Assembly (NCBI GenBank): GCA_028554795.2
Contig: CM068828.1
Span: 9,495,314-9,559,313 of the forward strand
Direction: 5' to 3'
Length of the DNA: 64,000 bases
DNA from: Sinohyriopsis cumingii
Taxonomy: Eukaryota > Mollusca > Bivalvia > Unionida > Unionidae
Below the pieces are notes generated by a model that was not told the origin of the DNA, ran no database searches, and saw only the letters and a list, made by a program, of their open reading frames with translations. The position numbers and the translations under genes are program-made. Of this stretch, positions 35,243-55,866 are shown piece by piece; the first letter of the stretch is position 1, and every line of letters begins with the position of its first letter.

Positions 35243-35641
35243 AGTAGTAATGGGGGACGATTTAGGGACTATGGGACTTATCATTAAAAACACCCCTGGG
35301 ACGATATAGGGACTATGTAAATTTAACATGGAGAAAACCCCTGGGAGGATATAGGGACAAGGGGAATTAACATTAGGGAATAGTTCGTGGGACAATATAG
35401 GGACAAGGGTTAATTAACATGGGGAAAAATCGTGGGACGATATAGGGACAAGGGAAATTGAACATGGGGGAAAAAGTCTTGGGTCACTCTAGCCTCAAGG
35501 GAAATTGAACATGGGGAAAAATGTCTTGGGTCACTCTATTTTTTGTTTAAAATAAAAAATAAAATAAAAAATGGGGTAGGCAATTGAAAGTCAATCTCTT
35601 TTCGAGAGATGTGGGTGGCCCTGAAAAGGGCCTTTGGGTTT
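35243..35641. repeat. Left terminal inverted repeat
   Basis: 399 bp pairing with 55472-55866. The outer 200 bp hold five direct copies of a block of the form GGGACGATATAGGGAC, separated by ACATGG/ACATTAGGG-type spacers. The inner end contains the histone-type stem-loop and purine box, so the repeat supplies the 3' end of the outward-facing terminal gene on each side. Confidence 0.96.
35594..35632 (-). terminator. Histone-type mRNA 3' end signal (left TIR)
   Basis: The minus strand reads GGCCCTTTTCAGGGCC (6-bp stem, TTTC loop), preceded by CCCAAA, followed by ACCCACA and, 13 nt after the stem, GAAAAGAGAT. These are the stem-loop, cleavage flank and histone downstream element of replication-dependent histone mRNAs. 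It lies 18 nt after the stop of the gene at 35651-36247. Confidence 0.9.
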
Positions 35642-35650
35642 CTTCTTCTT

Positions 35651-36247
35651 TTATTTCCTCCACTTCTTCATCCATCCCCTTATCTTTTCTAATAATCCGT
35701 TCTTCTTCTTTATATCTGACTCCGGTAACCAGTCAGGATGGCCCAGCTCTCTAAACTTCGTCTGTATCTTCATCCAATTGTTGTTAAGCCTCTCAAACTC
35801 TTCCTTTTTCCTTTTGCTTTCCTCATCTTTTCTTTCTTCCCTCCATCTCTCTTTAATCTTCTCTACTTCTTCCTCCATTACTTTTCTCATCAGATCTTCC
35901 CCTTTCTTCATCTTGTCCAACCCCCATTTTACATTCCTCCACTCTGTCCAGTACAATATCTTTTCTAGGAAGCACCGGACTTGGATGACATGATCCAGTG
36001 CTTCCTTCAAACTACCCACTCTGAAGTAAGGTGGGTTAATGAAGCCTCTTGACTTATTGACTTCTTCTTCTATCATCCCTGCTATGATATCTCTTGCTGT
36101 CTTTAGGCCTTGAACTTGACTGGTTACTAAGTCTTTCATATCTCCATGCCTCCATTCCTCTTCTATTCTTCCTACAACATCTTCTACATCCATTATCCAA
36201 AAATAGATGTCTCTCAATAGATTAAATAAAACTGATACTTGAGTCAT
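35651..36247 (-). CDS. Polinton left-terminal gene, coiled-coil protein
   Basis: 198 aa with an ATG start and TAA stop. The N-terminal half is helical (DVEDVVGRIEEEW). The C-terminal half is a highly charged coil (EEEVEKIKERWREERKDEE) ending in a basic patch, KIRGWMKKWRK. No family recognised. The gene faces the left terminus, ends 18 nt before the histone-type 3' signal in the TIR, and has the shared promoter box 63 nt upstream of its ATG plus a second copy further up. Its frame is intact, unlike most virion genes of this element. It is longer than its neighbours in the cassette array and does not share their LAKL-type N-terminus. Confidence 0.75.
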   Translation of the reverse strand: MTQVSVLFNLLRDIYFWIMDVEDVVGRIEEEWRHGDMKDLVTSQVQGLKTARDIIAGMIEEEVNKSRGFINPPYFRVGSLKEALDHVIQVRCFLEKILYWTEWRNVKWGLDKMKKGEDLMRKVMEEEVEKIKERWREERKDEESKRKKEEFERLNNNWMKIQTKFRELGHPDWLPESDIKKKNGLLEKIRGWMKKWRK

Positions 36248-36309
36248 TTTGTCTCAGTTATTCCTTAGAATGGTTCCAACATCAAACTTTGTGGGTTCTG
36301 ATAGTGAAA

Positions 36310-36333
36310 GCGCGGACGTGATAGAAAACATCC
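36310..36333 (-). promoter_or_regulatory. Shared promoter box, gene 35651-36247
   Basis: On the minus strand this 24-nt box starts GGATGTTTTC and ends CACGTCCGCGC. It sits 63 nt before the ATG and just ahead of a weak TATA-like CACTATCAG. Confidence 0.65.
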
Positions 36334-36376
36334 CCCTAAAACAAAATTGATATTACCTAGATCATGACCAAACAAC

Positions 36377-36400
36377 GCGCGGACGTGAAGGAAAACATCC
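36377..36400 (-). promoter_or_regulatory. Shared promoter box, second upstream copy
   Basis: A second copy of the same box, 44 nt further upstream on the minus strand. A matching second copy, degenerate, lies before the third cassette gene (37988-38008). Confidence 0.55.
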
Positions 36401-36739
36401 CCTACTTTTCTCATTTCATATGATCTACTGTCCACATACGTGAACCAGCAATAAACAAACCCCAAATCTACTATTTACACACGCAAATCGTTAAAACGAA
36501 ATCCATAATCTACTATCCACACAATCGTACGTGAGCGGTTACAAAACCCAAACTATACTCTCTACATACGCTAAGAAACAATAAACAAACCCATAATCCA
36601 CTATTCACACAAATATACGTGAGCGCTTACAAACACAAACACACAAACACAAACAAACACATACCCTCACACTAGGAAAAAAAAGAGTCAGTGTTTATAT
36701 TCGCACTACTCTACATACACACATTGGCAAATAGGTTAC
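36401..36739. other. Intergenic spacer of the cassette array
   Basis: It contains repeats of CTACTATCCACA/ATACGTGA, CA-rich runs and AGAGTCAGTGTTTATATTC, all found again at 37220-37490 and 38040-38280. This marks the spacer as part of a tandemly duplicated unit. Confidence 0.7.
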
Positions 36740-36779
36740 TATATCTTTTCTAGAGATTGGGATAGCCCTGAAAAGGGCT
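36740..36779 (-). terminator. Histone-type mRNA 3' end signal (cassette 2)
   Basis: Minus-strand AGCCCTTTTCAGGGCT, then ATCCCA and AGAAAAGATA. It lies 31 nt after the stop of the gene at 36811-37119. Confidence 0.88.
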
Positions 36780-36810
36780 GTTTGTTTTTTTTGAACTCCA
36801 TGACACCTGG

Positions 36811-37119
36811 TTAATGATGGCACTTTCCAGGCCTGGCACCACACATACATCTTCTTCCCCAGTCTCTTTTCACTCTTTTTGGGGGGAGAGCAGAGGCGGG
36901 ATAAGTGGCTTCAGAATCCCAATTTTCTGTCTCTGGGATTCTGAAATTTCCTCTCTCCTCTTCTTTGTTTCTTCTCTCCTCCTCTTCTTTGTTTCTTCTC
37001 TCCTCCTCTTTCATCCTTCCCTCTTCTACGATGGCCTCTGCAGCCAGCTCATTCACTATACGCCTGGCATATTCCAGGTGTACATGAAGTTCAAGCAGTT
37101 TAGCTAGTCTGGTGTTCAT
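36811..37119 (-). CDS. Polinton cassette protein A, charged coil with CxC/CHH tail
   Basis: 102 aa from the ATG at 37119; the longer open frame upstream lacks an ATG. The N-terminus MNTRLAKLLELHVHLEYARR is shared with the neighbour at 37562-37858 and weakly with the one at 38355-38714. A Glu/Lys/Arg coil made of EERRNKEEE repeats follows, then RIPETENWDSEATYPASALP and a C-terminal cluster RRCMCGARPGKCHH that could bind a metal. Function unknown. The repeat between genes, the promoter box 77 nt upstream and the histone-type end signal show tandem duplication of a whole expression cassette. Confidence 0.75.
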   Translation of the reverse strand: MNTRLAKLLELHVHLEYARRIVNELAAEAIVEEGRMKEEERRNKEEEERRNKEEERGNFRIPETENWDSEATYPASALPPKRVKRDWGRRCMCGARPGKCHH

Positions 37120-37195
37120 TCTGGTGGTGTTGATCAATCAACAAGGGTAGCTAGACTGCCGAACGATTTTTAATTTATACTGATAACCTAACAAC

Positions 37196-37219
37196 GCGCG
37201 GACGTGAAGGAAAACATCC
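37196..37219 (-). promoter_or_regulatory. Shared promoter box, cassette protein A
   Basis: A perfect copy of the 24-nt box, 77 nt before the ATG, with AGTATAAATT (37170-37179) as TATA box between box and gene. Confidence 0.7.
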
Positions 37220-37369
37220 CCTACTTTTCTCATTTCATATGATCTACTATCCACATACGTGAAGCATCAATAAACAAACCCCTAATCTACTATTGACACA
37301 CGCAAAGCATTGAAATGAAACCCAAATCTACTATCCACACAAACCTACGTCAGCGCTTACAAACAAACA

Positions 37370-37420
<51 letters not shown>

Positions 37421-37492
37421 ACACAAGAAAAAAAAGAGTCAGTGTTTATATTCACACTACTCTACATACGCACACATTGGGAAATCGATTGT
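37220..37492. other. Intergenic spacer of the cassette array
   Basis: The second copy of the spacer unit, expanded by the (CA)n run at 37372-37416. Confidence 0.7.
37372..37416. repeat. (CA)n microsatellite
   Basis: About 22 CA units in a spacer whose sister copies have only short CA-rich runs. Confidence 0.95.
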
Positions 37493-37532
37493 TATTTCTT
37501 TTCTAAAGGTTTGGGTAGCCCTGAAAAGGGCT
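37493..37532 (-). terminator. Histone-type mRNA 3' end signal (cassette 3)
   Basis: Minus-strand AGCCCTTTTCAGGGCT, then ACCCAAA and AGAAAAGAAAT. It lies 29 nt after the stop of 37562-37858. Confidence 0.89.
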
Positions 37533-37561
37533 CTTTGTTTTTGAACTCCAGTGACACCTGG

Positions 37562-37858
37562 TTAATGATGGCACCTTCCAGGCCTGGCACCACACACACA
37601 TCTTCTTCCCCAGTCTCCTTTTACCTTTTTTCTTGGGAGTGCAGAGGCGGGATAAGTGGCTTCAGAATCCCAATTTTCTGTCTCTGGGATTCTGAAATTT
37701 CTTCTCTCCTTTTCCTCCTCTTCTTTTTTTCTTCTTTCCTCTTCCTCTTTCATCCTTCCCTCTTCGACAATGGCCTCCGCGGCCAGTTCATTTAGTATGC
37801 GCCTGGCATATTCCAGGTGCATCTGGAGTTCTAGAAGCTTTACAGTTCTGGTATTCAT
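37562..37858 (-). CDS. Polinton cassette protein B, paralogue of A
   Basis: 98 aa, ATG to TAA. It is nearly the same as protein A from MNTRTVKLLELQMHLEYARR through the shortened Glu/Lys coil to RIPETENWDSEATYPASALP, and keeps the RRCVCGARPGRCHH tail. Differences from A are mostly in the repetitive coil, while the N-terminal helix and the Cys/His tail are kept. That argues for selection on the protein after duplication. Promoter box 63 nt upstream of the ATG, TATA AGTATAAATT at 37907-37916, histone-type 3' signal downstream. Confidence 0.77.
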   Translation of the reverse strand: MNTRTVKLLELQMHLEYARRILNELAAEAIVEEGRMKEEEERRKKEEEEKERRNFRIPETENWDSEATYPASALPRKKVKGDWGRRCVCGARPGRCHH

Positions 37859-38286: not shown

Positions 38287-38326
38287 TATTTCTTTTCTAG
38301 AGTATTGGGTAGCCCTGAAATAGGCT
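38287..38326 (-). terminator. Histone-type mRNA 3' end signal (cassette 4, weakened stem)
   Basis: Minus-strand AGCCTATTTCAGGGCT (one mismatch and one wobble next to the loop), then ACCCAATA and AGAAAAGAAAT. It lies 28 nt after the stop of 38355-38714. Confidence 0.8.
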
Positions 38327-38354: not shown

Positions 38355-38714
38355 TTAGTTTCTAAGAATGCGTCGTCCTCTGAGGATAGACTTTCTGACG
38401 ATAGGTCTGCTTCTTCGGAAAGAGAAGAAGAACTCTTTGGTGTCGATACGACAATCGACAAAGCCTCTGTCAGGTTCAGGTTGCTGCTGCTGCTGCTGCT
38501 GCTGTTGCTGTTGCTGCTGTCTCTGAAGTCTGTACGTCTCTGTCCATTCTTCTTTCTCCCTGTTCACTTCTTCTCTGAAGAGCTCTTCTATCAGGTCTTC
38601 AGTGACTTTTAACATTCTCACATTCTCTATCTCTTCTGGCTTCGGTATCAGACTGTGTCTGACCCTATGCAAATTCACGTAGGCTTCGTTTAGCTTAGCT
38701 AGTTTGGAGCACAT
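38355..38714 (-). CDS. Polinton cassette protein C, polyglutamine-containing
   Basis: 119 aa from the ATG at 38714. The frame is open for 43 more codons with another ATG, but those codons overlap the promoter box and TATA-like TTTAAG, so the internal ATG fits better. The N-terminus MCSKLAKLNEAYVNLHRVRH aligns with proteins A and B. The middle has LIEELFREEVNREKEEW and then a run of about 13 Gln. The C-terminus is basic (FRRSRPIVRKSILRGRRILR) and lacks the CxC/CHH tail. It is probably a diverged member of the same duplicated family. Function unknown. Confidence 0.7.
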   Translation of the reverse strand: MCSKLAKLNEAYVNLHRVRHSLIPKPEEIENVRMLKVTEDLIEELFREEVNREKEEWTETYRLQRQQQQQQQQQQQQQPEPDRGFVDCRIDTKEFFFSFRRSRPIVRKSILRGRRILRN

Positions 38715-38780
38715 CTTCGTAGGAGGATGAGTCGACAATGGATGGTTAGATTGGAAACTTCCCCGGTTCTTAAAGTCAAA

Positions 38781-38804
38781 GCGCGGACGTGAAGGAAAAC
38801 ATCC
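38781..38804 (-). promoter_or_regulatory. Shared promoter box, cassette protein C
   Basis: The 24-nt box, 67 nt before the chosen ATG; its location supports starting the protein at 38714. Confidence 0.68.
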
Positions 38805-39049
38805 CTCTACGGTTTTCGAGCCGCAACGTTCAATGAGTGTCATGAGAGGGATAGTAAGAAGTCAAAGAGCATGAATCAGCATTCTTATAGCCAAACAAAA
38901 GACAAAGGCATTTTTTCTTCAAAACACAACATTTTTTTTAATTCAAAATCACTTAACACTAACAAACAACTCTAAGATTTTTAACAATAACTCAACAATA
39001 TAACATCAAACTTTTTTTCTAATGACAAACATTTTATTCAATTAACACT
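38805..39049. other. A/T-rich spacer with polyadenylation signal for the protease
   Basis: On the minus strand, 15-20 nt after the protease stop, AATAAA (about 39030) is present. There is no stem-loop here, so this gene appears to end by ordinary polyadenylation. Confidence 0.6.
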
Positions 39050-39610
39050 CTACTTTAAACAGGGTTGACAACGTTGTGAATGAAATTGTGATTTCCACTG
39101 ATGGAAGTCATTAGGCCATTGATGGACACTACGTTTCCTAGCTTGAGACAAAAGATAAGCATAATGGTCACAAAACCATCGATCTACTTTCACATCGTTT
39201 CTTGAAGAAGAACGAGGATCAAAATGAGTCACTAAATTTTCTAAGGAATAGCCCAGGCTGCGATGATGCAGAAAATACACACAATATTGTCCGCACACCA
39301 AGGAATCTGTGCCTTGTAATTTCGCATTATTGAATCGGGTGGTCTGAGCATATCTTCTCATAAAGTCGATGATATCGTCTTCCAAAGGGGGCAATCCGTA
39401 CGAATCGAAATATTCCACACATCCTTCTTGAGGAAAGTAGACGGCTACCCAGTGGATTCCTGGGAGATGACTGTCGTCCGTGTTGATCACATAAGCTTGA
39501 TGGTCTTGAGGTTTGCGATGAGGGAGTTCATCTTTAGCACAGACGACAGGATTCCAAGAAGCCGTGTACGAGCTGTGGTTCAAAAGGTAATAAAGTTCCC
39601 AGGTATCCAT
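39050..39610 (-). CDS. PRO: Adenain-like cysteine protease
   Basis: 186 aa, intact, ATG to TAA. It is the Polinton protease of the adenovirus-endopeptidase/Ulp1 (C5/C48) type that processes capsid and core proteins in viral relatives. The catalytic order His-Asp-Gln-Cys is visible: IHWVAVYF (His), YFDSYG (Asp), then LVCGQYCVYFL with the Gln and nucleophilic Cys. Its length is close to adenain. It sits first in the virion gene block, next to the 39660 gene and the capsid genes, as in other Polintons. It is one of the few core genes without damage in this copy. Confidence 0.92.
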   Translation of the reverse strand: MDTWELYYLLNHSSYTASWNPVVCAKDELPHRKPQDHQAYVINTDDSHLPGIHWVAVYFPQEGCVEYFDSYGLPPLEDDIIDFMRRYAQTTRFNNAKLQGTDSLVCGQYCVYFLHHRSLGYSLENLVTHFDPRSSSRNDVKVDRWFCDHYAYLLSQARKRSVHQWPNDFHQWKSQFHSQRCQPCLK

Positions 39611-40128: not shown

Positions 40129-41436
40129 CTAATAGTCTAGATTGACTTCTCTCAAACTGTTGATTTCTATGGTATTATCGAATTCGGCATACAGGAGGAC
40201 CTTCACCGTCTCTGTTAGATTTGTAGCAAACTGAATTTCCACACGAATCTGGCCAGATTTTATAGGGTGGAAATGTCCCTCGTCGCTGCCTTGGTCTGGA
40301 GTGAAATCGAAAGCCCACAAAGCGTAGCCTCCTGCGTAATCCTCGTACGTAATGCCGTGACTGGTTTTGGTTCCTAACTGACCGGTGGCTTCGTACAGGG
40401 ACAAGTACGACCTCAAGTAATTCTTCTTGTCAAAATTAGGTTCGAAAGGTCGGGTACACAAGGTCTTGCCATCGCGACTGACTTCGATCTTGGACACGTC
40501 AAAGTGTTTAAAGTGGAAAGGATTTTAAACCAAAGCTCCGTTGAAGGCTGCATTCTCGACGATACCAAGGATCAAACGTTTGGATAACTGTCCTTGGAAC
40601 AGATGATCTTCGATCATGGATCGCAGCCCCGTAGGAATGGTGAAGGTTTTCACTTCCACGCGTCGTATGGGATACTTGGCGGTCGTTCTGCTCAACGTCT
40701 GACTGATGTCGTTATCCACTTTAGGTAACACTTCCACGCGTCGTACGTAGAGCCTGGCTTCCTCGATGACAGTTTTGCAAGCACTAGTACCTATCAAATG
40801 GAAAGCGGCACTACTACGATTCAGTCTCAGGCGGAGATTCACTACGTTCAGCAAATACTTTTCTTGTAACCACATGTCCAAATGCAAACGATCCATCAGT
40901 TCTAAACTATCTCCACTTTTGATTCTGTCTCTTCGTTCTACAAATCCCGTATTGTGTTCTTTGGTTGTATTAATTTCGAATTCTTCAAACTGGCCTGCAA
41001 CGTCAGCTTCCCATACCACACAGGCATTGAGATGAGTGTTCTTGGCGTCTATTCCGTACGTCAAGAGATTTTCCAGGTACGCTCGATAAGGGTAAGTATC
41101 CATGCTGTTACTGACTAGTTTGTTATTCAAGTACAAGTCCACTCCACTGAACAAGGAATGCATGAAATTGTTGACGGGAGCTATTACCTCATCACCATCT
41201 AGGGGCGTATTATCCTCATCGACAACTTTGACTTTCAGGTACAAGTAACTGCTATTCAGATCGATGTAATCTTCGGGCTGTCCTTTGATTTCAAACTGGA
41301 TGGGAGCTGAGGCTGTGAAAGAGGAGACGGGGTGAAATTCCACCCACTGGGATTCTTGCATGATCATCATGGTGGGGGGCATAGCAAACAGATCCAGTTC
41401 CGACTTGGAACAAGCGCAAGATTCTCGGTGCATCAT
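40129..41436 (-). pseudogene. MCP: Major capsid protein (double jelly-roll type), one premature stop
   Basis: 435 codons from the ATG at 41436, homologous to the Polinton protein family annotated as F54H12.2-like, which I take to be the major capsid protein. Family hallmarks are SELDLFAMPPT at the N-terminus, YIDLNSSYLYLKVKV, VNNFMHSLFSGVDLYLNN, TYPYRAYLENLL, AKYPIRRVEVKTF and, near the end, YALWAFDFTPD. A single in-frame TAA at 40525-40527 truncates it after about 303 residues, and the same frame then continues to the normal end. The decayed copy at the left of the window has a sense codon there. The penton gene stops 12 nt before the ATG. No clear TATA box lies between them. Confidence 0.82.
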
Positions 41437-41447
41437 TTTGTTCTTTC

Positions 41448-42553
41448 TCAATAATCGAAAACGTCTAAGTCTCGAACGGTTCTTCTTTTCTTTGTCTTTC
41501 TAGAAGGGTGAAGTCTGGTGAAAGGGTGTTTTCTTCGTCGTCTCTTTCTACCTTGTCCTTGCTGAATGCCTGACTCGGTAGCGTGCAGGGCATTTATAGG
41601 TGTTTCTCGTCGGTCCAAAAGGTCTTTACCCGTTTGCAGCAAGACATTTTTGCCTGCCCTCATGAAGGCTTCTTTAGGGTTTTGTTTGTCGATGATGACA
41701 TTTTGGAGAAATTCTTTGCCTTGCGTCAGTGTCGCATCTTTCAAGGCGTGCAATCCGCGTGTCACCATCGGTTTCAAATACGACTTGCTGACCGGCAAAT
41801 AGTGAGGATGTACAAATTCGCGGTGGACGTGGTAAGTGTTTCCACCTTCCTCGTCAGCGACCGTGGCAGAATCCACTTTGAAAGGAATGACACGCAGTAA
41901 CGGTACGGAGGTGTGTCCCACCACGTTATACTCCACCACATCGGAGTACACAAGCATCAAATTCACTCCTTGGTTCAGTTCTACCGGGGCACGAAAAAAC
42001 GTGCTAAAAGAATCGTTGTCGTAAATAAATGCTGATTCGCCTTTTTGTTGTTCTACCTTCTTCCTCAGTTCCATGTCTCCGCCCAACATGTCAAACAATT
42101 CAGGACAAAATAAAATGGACACGATTTTACTCCTGTCAAATTTCATCAAGATGCGACCAGCTGTTTTGTGGCATTCCATAGTGACACTTTTTTTGACACT
42201 TTCCAAAGCTTTCAGAAACACGACATTAAACCTGGAGGCAATGGTGCTCACCAAATGTTGACCACTAAAATAATAGCCTGGGGGAATGAACAAGTGAGAG
42301 GTGGTGTACTTTTGATTTTTTTGTGCCAGGAGTTTTCTTGTCATATTTGCCATCGGTATCCAAGTACTGTTGCATTTGCTGGTCATAAACTTCCACATCA
42401 AAAAAGTTTTGATTGGGAGGGACATTGAGGACTTGGGTCGGGTGAATGATTTCCACTAAAGCCACTTCAAAATGAGCTTCGTGATCTAATGGAATGGCCT
42501 GAGGTAATTTGGCCGTGCAACAGCACAAAGTGTTTGTTGGAAAACTCCTCCAT
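41448..42553 (-). pseudogene. Penton-like minor capsid protein, frameshifted
   Basis: The N-terminal part (frame from about 42564: LPQAIPLDHEAHFEVALVEI) and the main part (HLFIPPGYYFSGQHLVSTI to a very basic C-terminus GRKRRRRKHPF) lie in different frames. The switch falls near a run of seven A at about 42312-42318. The first ATG (42553) is in yet another frame, so the start is also unclear. The N-terminal EVALVEI.HP pattern and the position directly before the major capsid gene match the single jelly-roll penton-like protein of Polintons. A programmed shift at the A-run is a formal alternative, but the many other lesions make decay more likely. Confidence 0.75.
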
Positions 42554-43010: not shown

Positions 43011-44130
43011 TCACTTCTTTTTATAGTCGATGACTTGCGAAGCGTCGATCCAAGAATCGAAACTGGGTGGATATCCTTTCCAACGTACTTTGACTTCTTT
43101 GACACGTCGTTTGCCCACTTTACGGGTTCTGCGTTCGAGAATGCTTTCGATGTCGTACACGTCGTCTTCTTTTTTGGTGACACGTTGTAACTCGGGCAAA
43201 TAAAACGTTCCTTTGAGCACTTCTCCGTTCATGTCTTCCAATTTATAGACGGCAGGATGACGGCCATGCACTCGTCCAGTGACACGAAACAATTCGGTCG
43301 TCCAGTTAGGTAAGTAACCTTTGTCGAAAGTGCGTTTGGTTTTGCCAATTCGCACCCAATCTCCTACGGTCAACTCTCCACTTTTCTTGGGGACAGCCCT
43401 CGTCGGGGACGTACCAAACAGGCGCTCAAACACCAGCACTTCGTTGTCGGGAGTCACTTCTTGCGGGGCACGTCCAATGCTTCGATGGTAAGATCGGTTG
43501 TACGCGGTTGTACGCTTGCACCAGGTGCGGTAAGATGTCGATGTACTTCAGGGTGTGGTGATGCGTAAAATATTTCCACATGCGTTCTTTCAAAGTGCGT
43601 TGAAAACGTTCCACGATGCTGGCTTTGGTTTCAGGATTCTCGGTAGTAAAAAAATGAATGTCACGTTTCTTTAATTCTTTTTGGAAAGCTTGGTTCAGAA
43701 ATTCGGTGTCTTTGTCCGTTTACCATCGAAGAGGGTGACGACCGCTTTGTTTCAACACTCGTTGCAGGGCTCGCACTAACTCGTTGCTGGATTTGGAAGT
43801 CAAGGGCACGACCCAGGCAAATTTGGAAAATACGTCGATGACACAAAGCAAATATTTGTAGCCACGATTGTAGCTGGCCAAATGAGAGACATCGGCTAAA
43901 TCGGCTCGCCATTGATGATCGATGTCTTCCACTCGGGTGCGACTTCTGGCAAACTTGCGTCGAATGGGTTTGTGTAAAGTGTAGGTAGCTTGTTCTTGTA
44001 ACCATCGTTGCACTTGAGGTAAACGGAGACTTTTCAGTCGCATTTTGGAAGCACGATACAATTTTTGAACTCCTGCGTAACCTGCAGGATGCGAGGGATC
44101 GTAGTAAATGCTGGCTAAGACTTTTTCCAT
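43011..44130 (-). pseudogene. INT: rve integrase with C-terminal chromodomain, two lesions
   Basis: The ATG at 44130 begins MEKVLASIYYDPSHPAGYAG. The retroviral-type core shows the first Asp in WRADLADVSHL with YKYLLCVIDVFSKFAW, the second in a TDKDTEFLNQ segment and the Glu in ASIVERFQRTLKE. A chromodomain (DVYDIESILERR, then KVRWKGYPPSFDSWI) closes the protein. It would insert the element with 6-bp duplications, as seen at the ends. Two breaks: an in-frame TAA at 43720-43722 immediately before the second Asp, and a 10-bp tandem duplication at about 43495-43514 that shifts the frame before the chromodomain. The decayed copy has neither. Confidence 0.9.
43017..43027 (-). promoter_or_regulatory. 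TATA box of the membrane protein gene
   Basis: ACTATAAAAAG on the minus strand, overlapping the last codons of the integrase gene. Confidence 0.6.
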
Positions 44131-46283: not shown

Positions 46284-46928
46284 TTAAGTCGAGGACGGAG
46301 ACGTGTACAGGACAGGCCCTCCGTCTTGGCACCAGTGGTGAAACAAGTGGGTACGAAATCGCAAATCATCGGGGGTCGTAGGTTTCAAATCGACGAGTAA
46401 ATAGGCGTGTGGAGTTTGAGTGGCATCGTCGTACGCCTGAGTCAGCCAAGGCGTTCCTAAGTGTTTGGCTAAGACTTGCACTTTCGATTTATCTCGAGGG
46501 CTTTTAAACAAGACCACGTAATGCGCATTGAGACTGATGGTGCGATGGGCTTTACTTTGTTAAAACAAATTTTGGGTGATGTAAACGACACTGGCATTAC
46601 GGTGATGCCCTTTGCGCGTGAACCACAGTTTAATTTCTTCGTCGTCTTCTCCTAACATGTCGTCGAAAAAGACCAAATGGGGTTGACGGGAGTCAGAGAC
46701 GATGCCGTCGTCTTCTTTAGGAATGCCTTCCACAAACACGATGGAATCGCCTTGACGTTCTCGCAAGAGGCTGTACGCCGATTGCCACTCTTTGTAACAC
46801 CACACGATCCGCTGAGTTGGTCGATCGATCAAATGATGTTTATGTTCGATCAAACGTTTGACGAATTCGGTTTTGCCTGAACGGCTAGGTCCAGCAATGA
46901 GCATGTTAAAGGGATGGCGCAGATACAA
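46284..46928 (-). pseudogene. ATP: FtsK/HerA-type DNA-packaging ATPase, one premature stop
   Basis: The Walker A GPSRSGKTEF comes near the N-terminus, Walker B is PHLVFFDDML, and a VVYITQNLF segment follows, as in the A32-like packaging ATPases of Polintons and large DNA viruses. An in-frame TAA at 46560-46562 comes directly after QNLF. The frame then continues with HRTISLNAHYVVLFKSPRDK, family-typical sequence, to 46284. The first ATG in frame (46904) lies only a few residues before Walker A. Upstream the frame stays open without an ATG to near the TATA box at 47053, so the true start may be lost, non-ATG or spliced. The decayed copy has this gene deleted. Confidence 0.87.
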
Positions 46929-47060: not shown

Positions 47061-47089
47061 CTTTTTTCAGAACACGTTTATTGAATGTT

Positions 47090-47392
47090 TCAAACATGAA
47101 TACGAAAGACAAAAATACATAAAAGCCAAAGGCTTAAGTACAACGATAAAAGGCACATGAAAATCATTAACGTGGAATAAAAACAAGTGTCTGTACAACA
47201 TGTTTTGGGTAATGTTCTGACCAGTTCTATAGGGGGTAAGGTCACACAAGTGTCCTCCCGAAAGGGTCTTTCAGGCCTGTCCACGACAGTCCTGTGCTGG
47301 GTGACGGGTTCTTCTGTCACCGTCACTAACACAGGTTGAAAAGTAACTTTTTTCTTTGGACGTTGAAAGGAAGGATCACAACTCTCGAGCAT
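47090..47392 (-). CDS. Small protein with C-terminal membrane anchor
   Basis: 100 aa from the ATG at 47392, chosen because it overlaps the preceding gene by only 17 nt. An earlier in-frame ATG at 47449 would overlap it deeply. The N-terminal part is polar and Pro/Thr-rich (FQRPKKKVTFQPVLVTVTEE). One long hydrophobic segment, TLMIFMCLLSLYLSLWLLCI, ends near the C-terminus, which suggests a tail-anchored membrane protein. No family recognised. An AATAAA overlaps the stop. Confidence 0.6.
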   Translation of the reverse strand: MLESCDPSFQRPKKKVTFQPVLVTVTEEPVTQHRTVVDRPERPFREDTCVTLPPIELVRTLPKTCCTDTCFYSTLMIFMCLLSLYLSLWLLCIFVFRIHV

Positions 47393-47621
47393 ACTGGGCC
47401 ACTTCTTGGGTCCAAGCCTCAAAATCCCATTTTTTCCAGGCACGGTCATCTGTCCAGTTGGGGTGTAAGTCACAAGCTACACACACATCGTCATACACGT
47501 CTTGGGTAGCTAAAAGTTGACGAATCTTTTTTTCCCGTAGAGGTCGAGAAGTATCCAGATGAAAACGTAAGGCTTTGAGCAAAAGGAGTCTCTCGTGAAC
47601 ATTTAAAGGCACCACTTTCAT
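47376..47621 (-). CDS. Small unknown Polinton protein
   Basis: 81 aa from the ATG at 47621, whose ATGA overlaps the stop of the gene before it. A helical first half (NVHERLLLLKALRFHL) is followed by KKIRQLLATQDVYDDVCVAC and a Trp-rich end (WTDDRAWKKWDFEAW). No family recognised. The ATGA overlap implies translation by re-initiation, or else that the two were one gene before a frameshift. I cannot decide which. Confidence 0.5.
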   Translation of the reverse strand: MKVVPLNVHERLLLLKALRFHLDTSRPLREKKIRQLLATQDVYDDVCVACDLHPNWTDDRAWKKWDFEAWTQEVAQYAREL

Positions 47622-48327: not shown

Positions 48328-49080
48328 TCAATGTCTCGGTCCCACTAAGGGTAAGTAATGACAATTCGGTGACCATCGAGCATGTTCTACGTAGGCCGAA
48401 TCTTGCGGTTCCCAGTGATGAAGTGACACACCGCAACTGAAGCACTTGACTTTATCTCCTTCGCCCAAGTAGAACAATCCGGCTCTGGCTAATTCTTCGA
48501 GGGTCGGTCCTCCCAGATACTTAGGCCATTTTCCTTTGAACGATTGAAGACGATTTTCAAAGTCGCAGTATTCCGACAAACGCACAGGAAACGAATATTC
48601 GTCTTTCACAGGTTCGTTTCGATGAGGGTTGGGTGACATGGACAGGAGTTTGCTCAGGGCTGGATGACATCCGTAGGGAGGTAAACGTGAAGGTCGACAT
48701 TCGCCTTTAAAACGAAACCCAGTAAAATGTCCAAGAGGACGAGTGGCATCGCTTTCGCATCCCTCAGGTTTGACACGCACAGCATCACTTTCCATGATAG
48801 GGGTAGTGAGAACAAAGTTCCCATGATGCTTTACGGCATCGCTAAGGTCACAGCGTACAGCATCCTTCCCATCGCAAGGCTCACAGTTGCACTCGTCTGC
48901 AAACTCCGTTACGCAATTACAATGGTAACCACATGGACAATTGCAGTTTCCTTCCGGACATTTTTCGTCGCAATGCCTGGGTCTTATCCATCCAATATTA
49001 GTCACACTAGAGGAAGATACAACTTTTTTACAATCCCCAAACTGGAACGATGTCTCTTTCAAAGTAGTCACCTTGTTCAC
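48328..49080 (-). CDS. BIR-domain (IAP-like) protein 1, with Cys-rich N-terminus
   Basis: 250 codons, open. The C-terminal 80 residues are a BIR domain: RLQSFKGKWPKY, ARAGLFYLGEGDKVKCFSCG and VEHARWSPNCHYL. The zinc ligands are complete (C-x2-C, then H and C in EHARWSPNC). BIR proteins bind caspases or related partners and block cell death, a plausible way for a virus-like element to keep its host cell alive. The N-terminal part has a dense Cys cluster (CDEKCPEGNCNCPCGYHCNC). There is no RING. The frame has no ATG before residue 96, and the TATA box at 49124-49134 implies a start nearer 49080, so the initiation codon or an intron is unresolved. Confidence 0.85.
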   Translation of the reverse strand: MNKVTTLKETSFQFGDCKKVVSSSSVTNIGWIRPRHCDEKCPEGNCNCPCGYHCNCVTEFADECNCEPCDGKDAVRCDLSDAVKHHGNFVLTTPIMESDAVRVKPEGCESDATRPLGHFTGFRFKGECRPSRLPPYGCHPALSKLLSMSPNPHRNEPVKDEYSFPVRLSEYCDFENRLQSFKGKWPKYLGGPTLEELARAGLFYLGEGDKVKCFSCGVSLHHWEPQDSAYVEHARWSPNCHYLPLVGPRH

Positions 49081-49138: not shown

Positions 49139-49588
49139 TCACAATGCAGTCTCAAGATTGTACATCGTTCCATTTTTATGTTTTTTATGTCTAGTTTTGG
49201 AAGGTACCGTCTCTAAGGTGCCGTCATCATTGTACCGTAGTGCCATGGGTGGAAAGGCCATAGAAAGGTAAGGATAGTGCGGAGACCATCGAGTATATTC
49301 CAGAATAGCTGAATCTTTGTAAATACATAGATCCATTCGTAACTTCAGTCCGCAAGCGAAACACTGTACTTCGTATCCCAATCCTGACTCAGGTCCCAAG
49401 TAGACAAATCCTGTTCTAGCTAAAATATGCGAAGAAGGTAATCCTTTCCTATCCGTAGGCCATGCTTGAAACGTGTCCAATCGACGGGCACAATCACAAT
49501 AGTCAGGCAAGAAAACCGGAAAATGGTAGAGTTTGAACTTGGAGTTCTCATCGGGTTTCTCACTCGATTCTTGCTGTGGCGAAGTCAT
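49139..49588 (-). CDS. BIR-like protein 2 with two zinc ligands missing
   Basis: 149 aa, ATG to TGA, intact. It shares the BIR layout with its neighbour (PDYCDCARRLDTFQAWP, ARTGFVYLGPESG, VQCFACGLKL). However, the segment that should hold the His and last Cys reads LEYTRWSPHYPYL, so His and Cys are both replaced (Y at the His position, Y at the Cys position). The first two Cys remain. The fold may still form, perhaps with the nearby His, or the domain may have become a zinc-free variant. It precedes BIR gene 1 in transcription direction and has its own TATA box at 49624-49630, inside the end of the polymerase gene. Confidence 0.83.
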   Translation of the reverse strand: MTSPQQESSEKPDENSKFKLYHFPVFLPDYCDCARRLDTFQAWPTDRKGLPSSHILARTGFVYLGPESGLGYEVQCFACGLKLRMDLCIYKDSAILEYTRWSPHYPYLSMAFPPMALRYNDDGTLETVPSKTRHKKHKNGTMYNLETAL

Positions 49589-49611: not shown

Positions 49612-52600
49612 TTACAACCAATGTTTTATACCAACATGTCCATACGGCAAAGTAAAGTGGTTGGGCAGTCGCACTCGCTTCTGGTACACGATTTGATAGA
49701 CTTTTTCCAAGGGTCGACTGACGATGTGGTGAGTGGGTAAACGTACAATTTTGTTCGGTTGATAGGTGGTTACTTTAAAGTTTCCATCCTCTCCGGATTG
49801 CAAGGCTTCTTCCAATACCCCAAAGTTGACCACACGACTGGTACGATAATTCAGAGTCAATCCTTTCACTTTGCACGTCGTGTGCACTTCTCCTTGTGGG
49901 TCCCGGTATTCGTAGACGTAATTTTTAGGACCGCCACTGACGAAACTTAGAATCTTGTCGTCGGGATGCTCGTCTGTCCAGGCTCCTAAACGGTCTCCTT
50001 CGATGTCAGGGTGCTGTTGACTCGGGTGATGGATGTAAATGCAACTGTCCGTGTCAAAGTACAGGACGCGTTCTCCTAACAGTTCTAAAGCTTCGTACAA
50101 TTTTAAGCGAGCATGAGCTGTCACGTAAGCCGCAATGATGACATTTCCAAAAAGGTCGTCTTGTACAAAGTCCAGATCTTCTTCGTAATTGACCAAGATC
50201 AAATCCTCGCGAACGACGTCCACGTGTTTTATGTATTTGGTTTTGTCGTGAATCATCTGGAAGTAGCGGGAAGGTTCTGTCAAATACTCCGTCTTGGGTA
50301 AACACAGTCGTTGTGCCATTTTACCCCACAAGCAATTTAACATCACTTTGGCAAACGATCGCCTGCCTTCGTTTTTCTCGATGTGGTCTAAAGAGATGCC
50401 TTCTTGTTCATAGTATTTCCCTTTGAATGTCTTTTCGTCTTCGGGAGTGTGACACCAGGAAGGATAGCCGCTGGCTTCTTGCTTCAGTTTCAAAAAGGCA
50501 TCCACGTTGTCGGCGAAAATGCCTTTCTGACTGGGGTCACCCTTGTGGTATTGTTCTGTCTTGGGAAAGTGACAAATTTCGTACACTTCTAACAGTTGGT
50601 ATCCCATGTCCAGAGCTTTGAACAATTCTACGTTGACCCAGGTTCCCGTCAAGGCCCGTTCTTCCTGGGTGTGCTGACAAGGCTGATCTTGGTTGCACTT
50701 TTCGGCACAAGTACGGCACAAAGGAAACATCAGTTTGCCTTAGCAATGGTGAGGTAAGACGGGATGGTACAAGTCCGTGGGAGGCAAAACTTTACACTTG
50801 ATCAAGCCTTTGTATTGTCGAATGTTTTTGGGGTCGATGTGTTCCGTGAACAATTGTGGGTGCCCTGTAGGAAAGCGACAATAGTTGCACACGTAGGGAT
50901 ACAGCGAACATACGTCCAAGTATTTGATTTCTTCTCCGTTCTCTTCGTCGGCTTGGTACAGCAAACAGGTGGCATTGGTTCTTCCTCCGTACAAACTATC
51001 CCTCGGGTTCAGGGGGTCCATGAACTGGTAACTTTCCACGAGGCGTTTAAACTCGGGATCGGTTTTCAAACGGTGATCGTACTCGTGTTCCCACATTTCC
51101 ACCACTTGGTATCCTTCTTGTTCTAACTTTAGGCGTCGCTGACAAGTGGCCTGGTACAAGTCTTCCATGGTTCGTTGTAAAAACTGATTTTTAGTGTCAC
51201 GGTCAGGGTAACAGACGGGACATCTGTGAAAAAAGCAACCGTTAAACTCGTACACGATCTTGGGGTTTTCTAAGTTCCAACCATAGGCCGAATGCGTTCC
51301 GATGGTCTTTTCGCCTCCTCCGTTGCGGGCATGCTGAATCCATTTGTCTTCCTTGTCGCACAAGTAATGTAACCAGCGTAGGGCTTTGACCGAGTATTGA
51401 CGTTTGACATAGTTGGTCGTTTGAGGACTGATGACAGCCACGGTGTTTTCAGGCATGAATCGTTGCCGGTACACTAAGGAACACGCTTTGGCAATGGTGC
51501 AAGCTTCTTTCAAAGGATCGACCCCTCCGTGTTCCATGAACAGTTCTCGAAATTTTCCACAGCATCGCCGTAAAATGTCCACGTCGGAACGACAATACTT
51601 TAACATTTCTTCCTGAAAGTCGAAAGGGTCGGAGGCATGAGCCTGGTACCAAGTGTAGAAAGCTTCTCGTTGTTCGGTACGCATGTTGTCAGGGTCGTAA
51701 TAGTGAGCCTCAGGTAAATGGGGTAGAACGGCGTGTTGATTGGCTTCCGTATTGAAAACGTGTGGAAAATACCCTTTAGCCATTTCTGTCATTCCAAACG
51801 TTTTAGGCATTCGACTCAAAGGCATGGCCATGTAACTCATCGAATCTTTAAACTGTACTTGTCCCACTTGCATGAAAATGATTTTGGCTCCGTTCAAAAT
51901 CACTTTAGGACGCTCGGTGCCTTTTTCCGTATAGTATCTCAAAAGAAACTGTCCTCGTATCAGGAGAAATTGTGAGCCATCACCGTGGCATGACAATGAC
52001 AATCTCCGTAACGTTCGATGTCCTCTTGGCTCCACGTCTTGTCGATGGGGTCTAAGACCCATCGGGCGAAATCGGCTAGCGTGTTCGGCCCTCGAAATAT
52101 TTTTTCACGTCCTCCAGGAATTTTGCTGCAGTGAGGACAATGACTGAAGATAGGTTCTTGAATGCACTTCTCGCACGCTAGATGAGCTACGCAGAAATTA
52201 GGAATGTGAATGCCAGTCTCTTGCATGCATTCGAAATCGAAAAAGATGAAATTGCCTTTCTTCTTGTGTCCATCCTCTTTCTCTGGTGGGGGTTGGTATT
52301 TTTGTGGTGACAAATGTGACATTTTTTCTTTCCTGAACATACGTGTGCCTTGGCATTATTGGTACGTAGGCCTTGTCCACACGTGGGGCACAATCTCAGC
52401 AGTTGACAAGCACATTTCTGCTGTGAACCTTGCGTCTTCAGATGTTGTTGGTAACAGGCAGGGCTGACAAACGTGCGCAGACAAGTTGAACAATGCACTG
52501 GTTTTTGCCCTTCGCTCAGACATGGTGGAGAGACCAAACATCCTGAGCATTTCGATCCACAATGTTTGTGTTGCTCTCGATTGTTATAACCATGATCACA

Positions 52601-53603
52601 TTTCTCACAGTAATAACCGTATCCCAGGAATGCAGTGATACTGGTAATGGTATCGAAATGGTCATCGTGATAATTGACATGAATGTATTTTCCATCCTTA
52701 AAGTCTTTCCCTCGAAACAACAAAGGTCCGCGCACTTCTTGAGGGTGCACTTTCAAGGTGTAGAATGGATAAAGGACATCTTGCAAATTTTGCATTTCAG
52801 GAATGCCGCAGGGTGTGTCTTTGGACAGGTCGGCTTGTTGCCACAGGAGTTCTGCTTCACTTCGTTGTTTGACTCTTTTCTCTTTTCCATTCTACCGTGT
52901 CGTTCTTGTTGGCATAGGTTCATCCCACCACGATGGCTCGGGCTAAACACATCTGGTCTTGAGAATTGTGAATTTGGACGAGACTCTTTTTGGTGCTGCG
53001 AAGGTCGTTCACCCATAACACCTTATTGCGTTGTCCGGTCCCTTGAGGAGGAGAGACGTGGGTCATGTCCAATGTGGCTTTTCCATCGGTGATGTCAAAC
53101 TGGTCATTGGATTGTTGCACGTGTTGAATCTTGTCCATGACTTTGGAAGCGGTCAATTCTGCAGGGGTGCTAAACTCGATCCAAATAGGGGATTTCAAAC
53201 CGTCGTGTTGTATGGAGAGTCTCAAGCGATCATCTTCTTTGGGTTGACATTGTCGCTTGAGTGTGGTGAGTAAAGAATCCCACACCCCAGTGATGAACCC
53301 TTCTGCTTTCTCTAACGGTACTTCGGACTTGAAATCTTTAAACTTCACCGTGTATTTGTAAGCTGTGGTTCTAAATTTTCTAGAGGAGCGCTTTTCGGTA
53401 TCTCGAATGGAATAGTATTTATCAGGGTTGACTAAGGGTGGCGAACTTTGTTTAGAGGGTTTGGATTCTGGTTCACTCATGTCCCCTTCAAAATCACTGG
53501 CATGAATTTGTGCCAAGACTTCAGCCCTGGTACGAGGTGATAGATCACGTTTCTGCCTCTTACTTTCTTCTTCTTTCTTCTCAAATGAATTGGATCGTTT
53601 CAT
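49612..53603 (-). pseudogene. POLB: Protein-primed DNA polymerase B, several lesions
   Basis: About 1,330 codons from the ATG at 53603. Order: N-terminal domain of unknown role; Cys/His-rich zinc region (CEKCDHGYNNREQHKHCGSKC in part); exonuclease Exo I FIFFDFEC (about 52240) and Exo II AHNF (about 51975); palm motif A YLDVCSLYP (about 50910); motif B AKVMLNCLWGK (about 50335); motif C LYFDTDS (about 50055). These motifs define the family B polymerases that copy DNA from a protein primer. Lesions: stop at 52920, a deletion of about 23 bp near 52880, a frameshift near 52300, a stop plus 1-nt shift near 51960, and a stop at 50740. The TATA box is at 53652-53657. Confidence 0.92.
49624..49630 (-). 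promoter_or_regulatory. TATA box before BIR gene 2
   Basis: GGTATAAAAC context on the minus strand, 36 nt before the ATG at 49588 and within the last codons of the polymerase. Confidence 0.55.
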
Positions 53604-53737
53604 CTTGAGTGTAAAACGTCAAATGACTCAAGTTTAAACACCATAGACTAATTTATAGTCATGGCAGACCAGCGTATATAAAAGGGGGTGTGTCTTGTCC
53701 TTTCACTATTCATTTCACTCTCAAACCGAGCACAACG
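53604..53737. promoter_or_regulatory. Divergent promoter, polymerase (-) and zinc-knuckle gene (+)
   Basis: Minus-strand CTATAAATT (about 53650-53658) faces the polymerase and plus-strand TATATAAAAG (53675-53684) faces the zinc-knuckle gene. The two boxes are less than 30 nt apart, so the two genes are likely to compete or be expressed together. Confidence 0.7.
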
Positions 53738-54158
53738 TTGGAAGAGACTAGCCAAATCGAACGTTTCATCGGAGCTTTGCGAGGGGTCATTAGAAAATTC
53801 TCTTCAGACCAGCCGACGGACTACTCTCCTTCCTTTCAAGATAAAAGTCAAGATACTTGCTATATCTGTCAAAAGAAAGGGCATTGGTCTTCAGAGTGTC
53901 CAGACCGTCAAAAAAAGAAAAACAGGGGCTAGAAAAGACAAAAGTCAAGATACCTGTTATTATTGTAAAGAAAAAGGACATTGGTCTCCAGATTGCCCAA
54001 AAAAGAAACAAGAGGAGTCAGAAGAAAAGAGGGATTCTTCAGAAGAAGAAAGCAGCCAGGTGAAGAAAAAGAAACAGGAGAAGAAAAGAAGAAGGGAAGA
54101 AAGTGAGGAGGAAGAGGAGGAGGAGGAGGAAAAGAATGTGACGGTGAAGAAATTTTAA
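53738..54158 (+). pseudogene. Two-zinc-knuckle nucleic-acid-binding protein, start and frame damaged
   Basis: Two CCHC knuckles, CYICQKKGHWSSECP (about 53858-53902) and CYYCKEKGHWSPDCP, lie in different frames. An A-rich stretch near 53914-53928 probably holds the indel. Behind them is a Lys/Glu-rich acidic tail (EEEEEEEEKNVTVKKF). The codon at 53738, where the decayed copy has an ATG, is TTG here, and no other ATG precedes the first knuckle. Zinc knuckles of this spacing bind single-stranded RNA or DNA. The gene lies between the polymerase and the coiled-coil gene. There is no stem-loop at its 3' end. Confidence 0.72.
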
Positions 54159-54399
54159 AAACAGAGAGACTAAACAATGAGACAGAAGAAGTGTATGAAC
54201 TTTTTAAAGTGCTCTGTTGTGAATTGTGAATTGGATTGTAACTATTGATAAAAGAATACATTAATTATATAAGGTAAGTGTCTTTGGGTTTTGATTTTAA
54301 AATAAGAACGTACACTCACGTACTCATACACAGACACGTACTATAAGGGTAAAATGTTTTTTTTGTGTGTTTTTTTGAGTTATTGGCAATTGAAAGTGT
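54159..54399. other. Spacer between the zinc-knuckle and coiled-coil genes
   Basis: A/T-rich. The minus frame of the coiled-coil gene extends through the stem-loop into this spacer as far as 54316. Confidence 0.6.
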
Positions 54400-55002
54400 A
54401 TCTCTTTTCGAGAGACGTGGGTGGCCCTGAAAAGGGCCTTTTTTGGTGTAGGGGTGAGTATAAGCAATCAACTTTAACTGTCTTAAGCCTTTGCCACGGC
54501 CGAGGCCTACTTCTGATGATGATGATTTGGTTGAAATCATTAAGGGTGGTACGGTAGGCTTAGTCACAGAGTTGGCGTGTTTAGCTCGGGAAGGTCGTAT
54601 TCTCTTCGGTCGTGATAAAGAAGTCTGATACATTTGTTTCAGACTTCTTAACTCCGCTAAAATGTCCAACAGTACCGTGATGGTTTGACTTTCACCCTCT
54701 TGTTTCTTTGCTGCTTCTTCTTCTTGTTTTTTTCTTACCTCTTCTTCTTGTTGTTGCTGTAAAAGAAAAGCTTGTTCCGCTTCCTTTTGCCGCTGTATAA
54801 ATTTCTCCAATTCTTCTTTCTGTCTCTGTCTAAAATTCTCCACTTGCGGTAATGAAGGTGACGAAGGTTCCGGAACAAATTCTTGCGAGGTAAGAAAATC
54901 CACAAAATCCCAATTCACCTCTTCTGAAAGTAAGTCCGGGTTCCCTTGTGTAGTCTCAACGACTGGTGCACCCCAGTTGATCGTTTTCTGAGTTTCCGTC
55001 AT
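54316..55002 (-). CDS. Polinton coiled-coil protein, stop codon apparently lost
   Basis: From the ATG at 55002 (50 nt after a TATA-like CTATATCG; an upstream ATG at 55038 is too close to it) the protein starts MTETQKTINWGAPVVETTQG. It has a Gln/Glu-rich coil (QEEEVRKKQEEEAAKKQEG), a leucine-rich segment ILAELRSLKQMYQTSL and a basic tail ending GRGKGLRQLKLI. In the decayed copy a stop follows at once. Here the frame reads on through the stem-loop to 54316. If the RNA is cut after the stem-loop the message would have no stop codon. The natural end is therefore about 54460; the extension is probably a defect of this copy. Confidence 0.72.
   Translation of the reverse strand: MTETQKTINWGAPVVETTQGNPDLLSEEVNWDFVDFLTSQEFVPEPSSPSLPQVENFRQRQKEELEKFIQRQKEAEQAFLLQQQQEEEVRKKQEEEAAKKQEGESQTITVLLDILAELRSLKQMYQTSLSRPKRIRPSRAKHANSVTKPTVPPLMISTKSSSSEVGLGRGKGLRQLKLIAYTHPYTKKGPFQGHPRLSKRDTLSIANNSKKHTKKTFYPYSTCLCMST
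54400..54438 (-). terminator. Histone-type mRNA 3' end signal inside an open frame
   Basis: Minus-strand GGCCCTTTTCAGGGCC, followed by ACCCACG and CGAAAAGAGATA: an almost exact copy of the TIR signal, but not in a TIR. The coding frame of the coiled-coil gene passes straight through it. Confidence 0.88.
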
Positions 55003-55038
55003 GTTGAAAAAACTGTCGCATGGATTGACTACACACAT

Positions 55039-55222
55039 GCGCTAGCGAATCGATATAGATCACGTGACGTCACAGACTGCTCTCTTCCGATTGGACGTGG
55101 GCTGACTGAATTTTGTAACGCGTGTTTGGATTGGTCAATGCACTCAATCCGTTTCAATCCTTCCTCTACCTATAAATAAGTGCAGTTCACTGCATTGATT
55201 CACCTGTTCTCGGCGCCTCAAG
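55039..55222. promoter_or_regulatory. Divergent right-end promoter with CRE/E-box, CCAAT and TATA
   Basis: CACGTGACGTCAC (55061-55073) combines an E-box and a CRE. Inverted CCAAT boxes GATTGG lie at 55089-55094 and 55139-55144. TATAAATA at 55171-55178 is 45 nt before the ATG of the + gene, and a minus-strand CTATATCG (55051-55060) serves the coiled-coil gene. CCAAT plus TATA is a usual arrangement in replication-dependent histone promoters. Most of these sites are kept in the decayed copy at 8755-8923. Confidence 0.7.
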
Positions 55223-55456
55223 ATGTGGACCGATGTGCAATCTTCTACGCTTGTGTCTTCGATGATGTTCCGGACGGACATACCCATGTATGTCCGGTCC
55301 AAGTGGACAGTTGTCCACAGGACAGACACCAGTCTGTGGATACGTAGGATCTACGTAGAAAGACAAGGATGCCTCAAAAGAGTCCTGATTTACGGTCCTA
55401 CAGTGAGGCGCAGCCTAAAGACAAGAAGAAGACCAATGCGGTGCCCCTTATGTTAA
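55223..55456 (+). CDS. Polinton right-terminal gene, small basic protein
   Basis: 77 aa, ATG to TAA, beginning MWTDVQSSTLVSSMMFRTD. It has conserved Trp/Tyr positions (PMYVRSKWTV, LWIRRIYVERQGCLK) and a strongly basic end (RRSLKTRRRPMRCPLC). The decayed copy keeps the same frame for 52 codons with many replacements but no indel, which argues for a real gene. Function unknown; its size and charge would fit a DNA-condensing or RNA-binding peptide. It faces the right terminus and its mRNA would end 40 nt past the stop at the histone-type signal in the TIR. Confidence 0.72.
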   Translation: MWTDVQSSTLVSSMMFRTDIPMYVRSKWTVVHRTDTSLWIRRIYVERQGCLKRVLIYGPTVRRSLKTRRRPMRCPLC

Positions 55457-55471
55457 TGGATACATTAACAT

Positions 55472-55866
55472 AAACCCAAAGGCCCTTTTCAGGGCCACCA
55501 ACATATCTCGAAAAGAGATTGATTTTCAATTGCCTACCCCATTTTTTATTCTTTTTATTTATAAAAAAAAAGAAATAGAGTGACCCAAGACTTTTTTCCC
55601 CATGTTCAATTTCTCTTGAGGCTAGAGTGACCCAAGACTTTTTCCCCCATGTTCAATTTCCCTTGTCCCTATATCGTCCCACGATTTTTCCCCATGTTAA
55701 TTAACCCTTGTCCCTATATCGTCCCACGAACTATTCCCTAATGTTAATTCCCCTTGTCCCTATATCGTCCCAGGGGTTTTCTCCATGTTAAATTTACATA
55801 GTCCCTATATCGTCCCAGGGGTGTTTTTAAAGTCCCATAGTCCCTAAATCGTCCCCCATTACTACT
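55472..55866. repeat. Right terminal inverted repeat
   Basis: 395 bp, the inverse of 35243-35641. It lacks 5 bp present in the left copy and differs by a handful of substitutions. Confidence 0.96.
55481..55520 (+). terminator. Histone-type mRNA 3' end signal (right TIR)
   Basis: GGCCCTTTTCAGGGCC preceded by CCCAAA and followed by ACCAACA and CGAAAAGAGATT. It lies 24 nt after the stop of the small basic protein gene. Confidence 0.9.

Follow-up and report, generated by a model that had tools for sequence, protein, structure and literature searches.

The window analysed here, 64,000 nucleotides of the bivalve Sinohyriopsis cumingii (assembly GCA_028554795.2, contig CM068828.1, positions 9,495,314 to 9,559,313 of the forward strand; window positions are counted from its first letter), holds at 35243-55866 a 20.6-kb Polinton, and this report concerns the 3' ends of the genes at the two extremities of that element. 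The element is flanked by 6-bp target-site duplications (TSDs; ACTAGG, left 35237-35242, right 55867-55872) and bounded by terminal inverted repeats (TIRs) of ~400 bp at 35243-35641 and 55472-55866, the left one with a histone-type stem-loop within its inner end; internal sub-repeats around GGGACGATATAGGGAC lie within both TIRs. Its central part, all on the minus strand, contains an adenovirus-type protease at 39050-39610 (178 homologs, of which some bear the PF00770 label; its Peptidase_C5 match, E 0.0012, narrowly misses the Pfam cut-off), two open reading frames (ORFs) at 40525-42425 without a Pfam match, which we take to be capsid proteins by resemblance, an integrase region at 43011-44130 (Chromo 43011-43232, E 1.1e-8; rve 43720-44130, E 3.8e-6, under the cut-off), a possible packaging ATPase piece at 46560-46904 (weak FtsK-type match, under the cut-off), two genes with Pfam-assigned BIR (inhibitor of apoptosis) domains at 48328-48795 and 49139-49588, and a type B DNA polymerase (PolB) at 49612-52795 (PF03175, organellar and viral, E 3.5e-25). 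The TSD, the TIRs, PolB, the rve integrase with its chromodomain and the protease identify the element as a Polinton and, because the polymerase is split among several ORFs, this copy of it is decayed.

Six short genes occupy the ends of the element, the four leftmost on the minus strand and two at the right, one of which is on the plus strand and reads outward. The left terminal gene at 35651-36247(-) encodes 198 aa with no Pfam match and a single homolog (52% identity); it is followed inward by genes at 36811-37119(-) (102 aa) and 37562-37858(-) (98 aa), each with TATAAA upstream and with products that by eye resemble each other, and by a gene at 38355-38843(-) (162 aa, no Pfam match). On the right, the gene at 54316-55038(-), referred to as right-minus, and the gene at 55223-55456(+), referred to as right-plus (77 aa, arginine-rich), diverge from a promoter region at 55009-55222 that contains two GATTGG (CCAAT) boxes and TGACGTCA, the plus gene having its TATA box there. 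This region, which presumably resembles parts of histone promoters, is partly conserved in an older Polinton copy in the window (see below), where the GATTGG boxes are kept. A TATA box as such was discarded as a mark of terminal genes, TATAAA being found within 160 nt upstream of three of the six and also of 6 of the 14 central ORFs. None of the six has a histone Pfam match; the terminal genes are not histone genes and resemble these in their ends alone.

A preliminary description of this sequence had listed six histone-type 3' processing signals in the element, each on the sense strand of the gene that it follows, mostly with an ACCCA-like flank, with AAAAGA 12-15 nt downstream, and in five cases shortly after a stop codon. 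All six are present at the coordinates and in the orientation that it gave. The stem GGCCCTTTTCAGGGCC lies at 35617-35632(-), 54423-54438(-) and 55481-55496(+), the stem AGCCCTTTTCAGGGCT at 36764-36779(-) and 37517-37532(-), and a weakened stem, AGCCTATTTCAGGGCT, with one mismatch and one G-U pair, at 38311-38326(-); base pair 1 of the stem switches from G-C to A-U among the sites. The flank is ACCCA in four of the six and ACCAA and ATCCC in the remaining two. The downstream purine element is regularly placed: GAAAAGA begins exactly 13 nt past the stem at all six sites, and this spacing is kept in 8/8 window sites, counting two in the older copy, despite a variable linker. Scored against RF00032 (histone 3' untranslated region (UTR) stem-loop; gathering score 34 bits), the signals of gene 35651-36247 (35592-35637(-), 39.6 bits, E 3.9e-8), of right-minus (54399-54443(-), 36.7 bits, E 4.8e-7) and of right-plus (55476-55521(+), 41.8 bits, E 5.7e-9) exceed gathering, and nothing else in the 64 kb does so for any Rfam family. 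Those of genes 36811-37119 (36738-36784(-), 29.2 bits) and 37562-37858 (37493-37537(-), 25.8 bits) fall below gathering, and the weakened signal of gene 38355-38843 (38287-38326(-)) is absent from the RF00032 listing at E <= 1. A stem pattern allowing at most one mismatch, written after six of its seven matches were known, matches seven places in the window versus 0.02 expected (100 shuffles). All seven matches in the window lie 3' of terminal genes; the random scatter that would have told against the preliminary description is thus absent from the window. A second small hairpin around CGAAAAGAG was considered as part of the signal and dropped, sites of the AGCC type keeping only GAAAAGA and not this hairpin.

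The five stop-to-stem distances are 18, 31, 29, 28 and 24 nt. At the sixth site, the right-minus ORF runs on through its own stem-loop; of the 21 other loci that have this gene end, 20 encode a protein (ending ..RQLKLIA or ..RQLKLIV) whose stop precedes the stem by ~19-26 nt, so that it is the window copy that departs from the family.

The older Polinton spans window position 5 to ~9237, is cut by the window edge, and is 68-78% identical to the main element in long aligned pieces. It carries the same terminal gene pair with signals, neither of which had been listed in the preliminary description: after the homologous plus gene (from 8924) there is a signal at 9179-9224(+) with its stem at 9184 (RF00032 17.9 bits, below gathering), which is the seventh site, and the minus gene has a damaged stem near 8015(-) with GAAAAGA still at 13 nt. 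Between the two copies of the plus gene, the stem-loop and purine element are identical at 29/36 positions versus 49/108 in the rest of the sequence after the stop (Fisher p 2e-4), in regions set by the analyst. A plus-strand ORF at 7303-7656 in this older copy matches FliW weakly, below threshold, and is preceded by a TATA-like box.

The natural comparison is with the histone genes of the host itself, of which we examined two stretches of the tandem cluster (L083 and L084 in our numbering of loci; units of ~8.27 kb with H3, H4, H2B, H2A and H1). H3, H4 and H2B end in a GGCCCTTTT(T/C)AGGGCC stem with GAAAAGA at 13 nt (the H4 spacing read by eye); H2A and H1 are arranged alike, except that GAAAAG stands at 14 nt. 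The flanks of the host histone genes vary (ACACA, ACAAA, ATACA, ACTTT), so that this part of the signal is not strict in the host either. The animal-named entries among 120 listed homologs of the host H1 are molluscs, e.g. Mytilus, Saccostrea and Crassostrea, which makes a mollusc the probable host.

We then surveyed the 2.9-Gb host assembly, the sole animal genome examined, with RF00032. At least 75 places were scored, all above the cut-off; because they were scored out of 589,472 first-look candidates, 75 is a lower bound. At 35.0-39.4 RF00032 bits, the host histone ends rank under 69 of these 75; the genome matches listed do not include the host histone stretches. Sixty of the 75 places were fetched (15 were left out), and all 60 match the Polinton by blastn with the stem near the centre: 26 are right-plus ends, 12 right-minus ends, 20 left ends and 2 not assignable. 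RF00032 matches thus do occur in related elements, as the preliminary description had predicted, and they mark Polinton terminal regions in 60/60 fetched host places. The stem is a perfect GGCCCTTTTCAGGGCC in 54, has a G-U pair in 3 and one mismatch in 3; the flank is ACCCA in 59, and AAAAG stands in the 13-nt register in 59. Column identity is 0.98-0.99 in the signal versus 0.61-0.63 in the flanks, a comparison anchored by a pattern that itself holds the motif, with a frame one base off, which we use as support only; one locus (L086), whose gene end disagreed with the marker, was left out of it. The leftmost gene varies by subfamily, being of a MASN.. type in L011, L015 and L030 and of MDVE../MVVA.. 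types in L014, L038 and the window (35651-36247), and a histone-type signal follows each.

Because the RF00032 places were selected by the stem-loop itself, we made two further tests in copies chosen without the tested signal. For the first, we used 23 loci found via the right-plus signal, two of which (L087 and L097) lack the right-minus gene end. In this partner-gene test, which begins from elements with one intact signal, right-minus ends with a stem-loop and GAAAAGA at 13 nt in 21/21, and the stem is perfect in 15. The second test started from the 77-aa right-plus protein. At least 150 matches, at 96-100% identity, were scored out of 18,262 candidates, and 147 of them have no internal stop, pointing to a large and probably recent expansion of the Polinton family. 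Among 20 of the 150 matches, spread down the list (L111-L130), the signal, sometimes damaged, lies 23-28 nt past the stop in 20/20; at least five of six stem pairs are kept in 19, the TTTC loop in 18, and GAAAAGA at 13 nt in 17, being altered in the other 3. At least four linker types follow the stem in these copies (ACTCATAGGTCTC, ACCCACATTTCTC, AGCCATATTTCTC and ACTCCAATCACTC) and represent sublineages of the family. The 77-aa gene is under purifying selection: the median ratio of nonsynonymous to synonymous divergence (dN/dS) is 0.13 over 159 of 210 pairs (dS 0.1-2) among 21 intact sequences (ORFs of 70-82 aa from the RF00032-chosen loci plus the window), with a median dS of 1.06, near saturation.

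The central genes of the window element differ from the terminal ones in this respect. RF00032 finds no signal at any of them, and in the window copy, to which the inspection of poly(A) hexamers was confined, AATAAA at 39033-39038(-), shortly past the protease stop, is a possible poly(A) signal of the structural block and AATAAA at 47077-47082(-), shortly past ORF 47090-47449, a possible poly(A) signal of the PolB/BIR block. Neither AATAAA nor ATTAAA occurs in the 300 nt that follow each of the six stems. Because the histone-type signals are terminal and AATAAA follows two central blocks, the element seems, from its sequence, to have two kinds of mRNA 3' end.

We consider it highly probable, judging from the sequence comparisons, that the terminal genes at both ends of the element carry functional 3' signals of the replication-dependent histone type. 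Because the signal is the same as that of the host histone genes, the element probably borrows the host's histone RNA-processing machinery. According to PMC7026596, U7 small nuclear RNA (snRNA) of animal cells base-pairs to the purine element, while the stem-loop is the binding site of SLBP; the same source gives AAAGAG as the purine core of the mouse substrate and sets out a fixed-distance rule. The Polinton sites provide all of these elements with the spacing found in the host. In our working model, host RNA polymerase II would transcribe the short terminal genes, host SLBP would bind the stem-loop, the U7 small nuclear ribonucleoprotein would pair with GAAAAGA 13 nt downstream, and CPSF73 would cut between the two, leaving an mRNA that ends just past the stem-loop without poly(A). 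The terminal products would then be made mainly where histone mRNA processing is active (S phase, embryo, germ line), and the polymerase, integrase, capsid and protease would come from polyadenylated transcripts. That there are two such RNA programmes, one of non-polyadenylated, S-phase-bound mRNAs of the terminal genes, which would probably be early or regulatory, made via host SLBP/U7 and perhaps at histone locus bodies, and one of polyadenylated mRNAs for the core replication and virion genes, we favour only slightly. The preliminary description had claimed both the use of host histone 3' signals by the terminal genes and its consequences; the first part is strongly supported by the comparisons above, and the absence of poly(A), the dependence on SLBP and U7 and the coupling to S phase are what we infer from it.

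Several observations weigh against a functional histone-type signal. The six window sites are partly copies of each other and two lie within the TIRs; three of the six sit in near-repeated units, and the 54400 site shares a 57-nt block with both TIR sites. Covariation in the stem is weak, with 58/500 shuffles reaching the score, and we therefore do not use it as main evidence. The 20 copies chosen by protein similarity are young, with proteins 96-100% identical, and share descent, so that presence by descent is part of the explanation there. Their flanks are ACTCA in 9, ACCCA in 5, AGCCA in 5 and ACTCC in 1; ACCCA in 59/60 of the RF00032 places reflects that those places were selected by RF00032, and the idea that an ACCCA flank sets the signals apart from recent copies of host histone ends was abandoned as unsupported by the protein-chosen flanks. 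Of 14 control genomes, one, that of a bacterium, also gave an RF00032 match, below the cut-off. An AATAAA (35650-35655) overlaps the stop codon of gene 35651-36247, and further poly(A) hexamers occur inside the element. Finally, neither U7 (RF00066; 65 of 801,960 candidates scored) nor SLBP (PF15247; introns may split the gene) was matched in the host genome, results that are uninformative given these limits and the lack of a match in any control genome. A U7-like pattern, TCTTTTC-N(0-6)-AATTTGTCTAG, occurs at 6 places versus 1 in the reversed control; none has a U7-type 3' hairpin or an RF00066 match, and because none of the six is U7-like we claim no U7. Two of them (L106 and L107) look by eye like Polinton integrase coding sequence, a chance resemblance.

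The partial duplication of the window sites, the travelling of the TIR copies with the element ends and the presence by descent expected in young protein-chosen copies would all suit a non-functional hitch-hiker, that is, a histone 3' end captured once, in a TIR, and passively copied since. We nevertheless hold this to be improbable, because between the two diverged copies in the window the signal is more conserved than its surroundings, column identity behaves likewise (with its motif anchoring), and the signal persists both at gene ends inside the element and where the leftmost gene is a different one. Relatives of this viral lineage have hairpins at gene ends, as in the transcripts of mimivirus and virophages, and the stem is nearly palindromic; hairpin-directed termination or polyadenylation of a viral type, unrelated to histone processing, was thus weighed and found quite unlikely, since a generic hairpin needs neither a TTTC loop in the sense orientation nor GAAAAGA at exactly 13 nt, the host histone cluster has the same set of features, and the central genes of the window element lack the signal. 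The location of two of the six sites in TIRs would fit a role of the sequence as DNA, for instance in replication or packaging at the termini; with four of the six internal, all in sense with the upstream gene, five placed 18-31 nt past a stop codon and a G-C to A-U switch that preserves the stem, we give such a role almost no credence.

A variant closer to the proposed mechanism accepts processing by U7 and SLBP but not its restriction to S phase, the gain for the element being poly(A)-independent export or translation, or a clean termination that shields the element ends. The TIR stem-loops belong to outward-reading genes and no poly(A) hexamer follows nearby, both of which accord with it. 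The supply of SLBP is itself cell-cycle bound in studied animals, so that expression would be restricted if SLBP is needed, and we regard a processing free of S phase as possible but doubtful. A histone-type signal used by the terminal genes, the reading we prefer, is common to this variant and to the two-programme model.

Beyond the host, no relative with the signal came to light in the IMG/VR viral contigs, whether the query was the protease, the capsid protein or either of two stem-loop patterns. The protease profile found one distant locus in the viral contigs (L001) and one tubeworm contig in bacterial genomes (L002), and RF00032 has no match in either. The latter is a Polinton fragment in a bacterial metagenome-assembled genome of a tubeworm endosymbiont, probably host contamination and, because it is a 3.6-kb fragment, it says little on terminal genes. 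In the window itself, integrase and capsid remnants at 57317-58814, in the right flank of the main element, belong to a third and more distant Polinton.

If the proposed use of the signal is correct, the SLBP/U7 pathway would have in this Polinton the first client known to us that is non-histone and either viral or mobile; the available text of a 2009 article states that SLBP had never been implicated in the direct regulation of non-histone genes (PMC2781718). A large, apparently recently active virus-like family would then supply the SLBP pathway with non-histone clients, which would hint at how these elements tie their expression to the replication of host DNA and would account for terminal genes being missed in RNA data obtained by poly(A) selection. 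It would also give meaning to a tally in the available part of a 2025 study (PMC12220804), in which an Rfam scan of 8300 genomes of polinton-like viruses (PLVs) and virophages yielded six histone 3' UTR stem-loops at gathering and none in cryptophyte PLVs. The stem-loop has therefore been counted before in the wider group. The section concerned gives a bare count among non-coding RNAs, without position, downstream element, host signal or function; the elements described here, by contrast, make up what is probably an animal Polinton family, whose examined copies bear the signal at terminal-gene ends. Apart from that count, the literature searched, in its available portions, contained no report of histone-type ends on Polinton genes, and the portion of PMC5799277 at hand had nothing on histone-type 3' ends. 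As far as we have seen, what is new here is the position after terminal genes, the purine element, the match with the host histone genes and the proposed use. Histone3 matches in coronaviruses, as given in the accessible text of PMC7786107, also come from RF00032; they reach 14.7 bits, far under the gathering score of 34, and lie inside a coding region, in contrast to the three Polinton sites with 36.7-41.8 bits at gene ends.

Set beside the end of a replication-dependent histone mRNA, the Polinton signals share the 6-bp stem, the 4-nt loop, CAAA-like and ACCCA-like flanks, the purine element at a fixed 13 nt, a short 3' UTR and the lack of a poly(A) hexamer within 300 nt; they differ in belonging to genes that have no histone Pfam match and reside in a mobile, virus-like element. 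That element has the 6-bp TSD, long TIRs, PolB, rve integrase with chromodomain and adenovirus-type protease of Polinton/Maverick (adintovirus-like) elements, and it differs from them in that its terminal genes have histone-type 3' ends.

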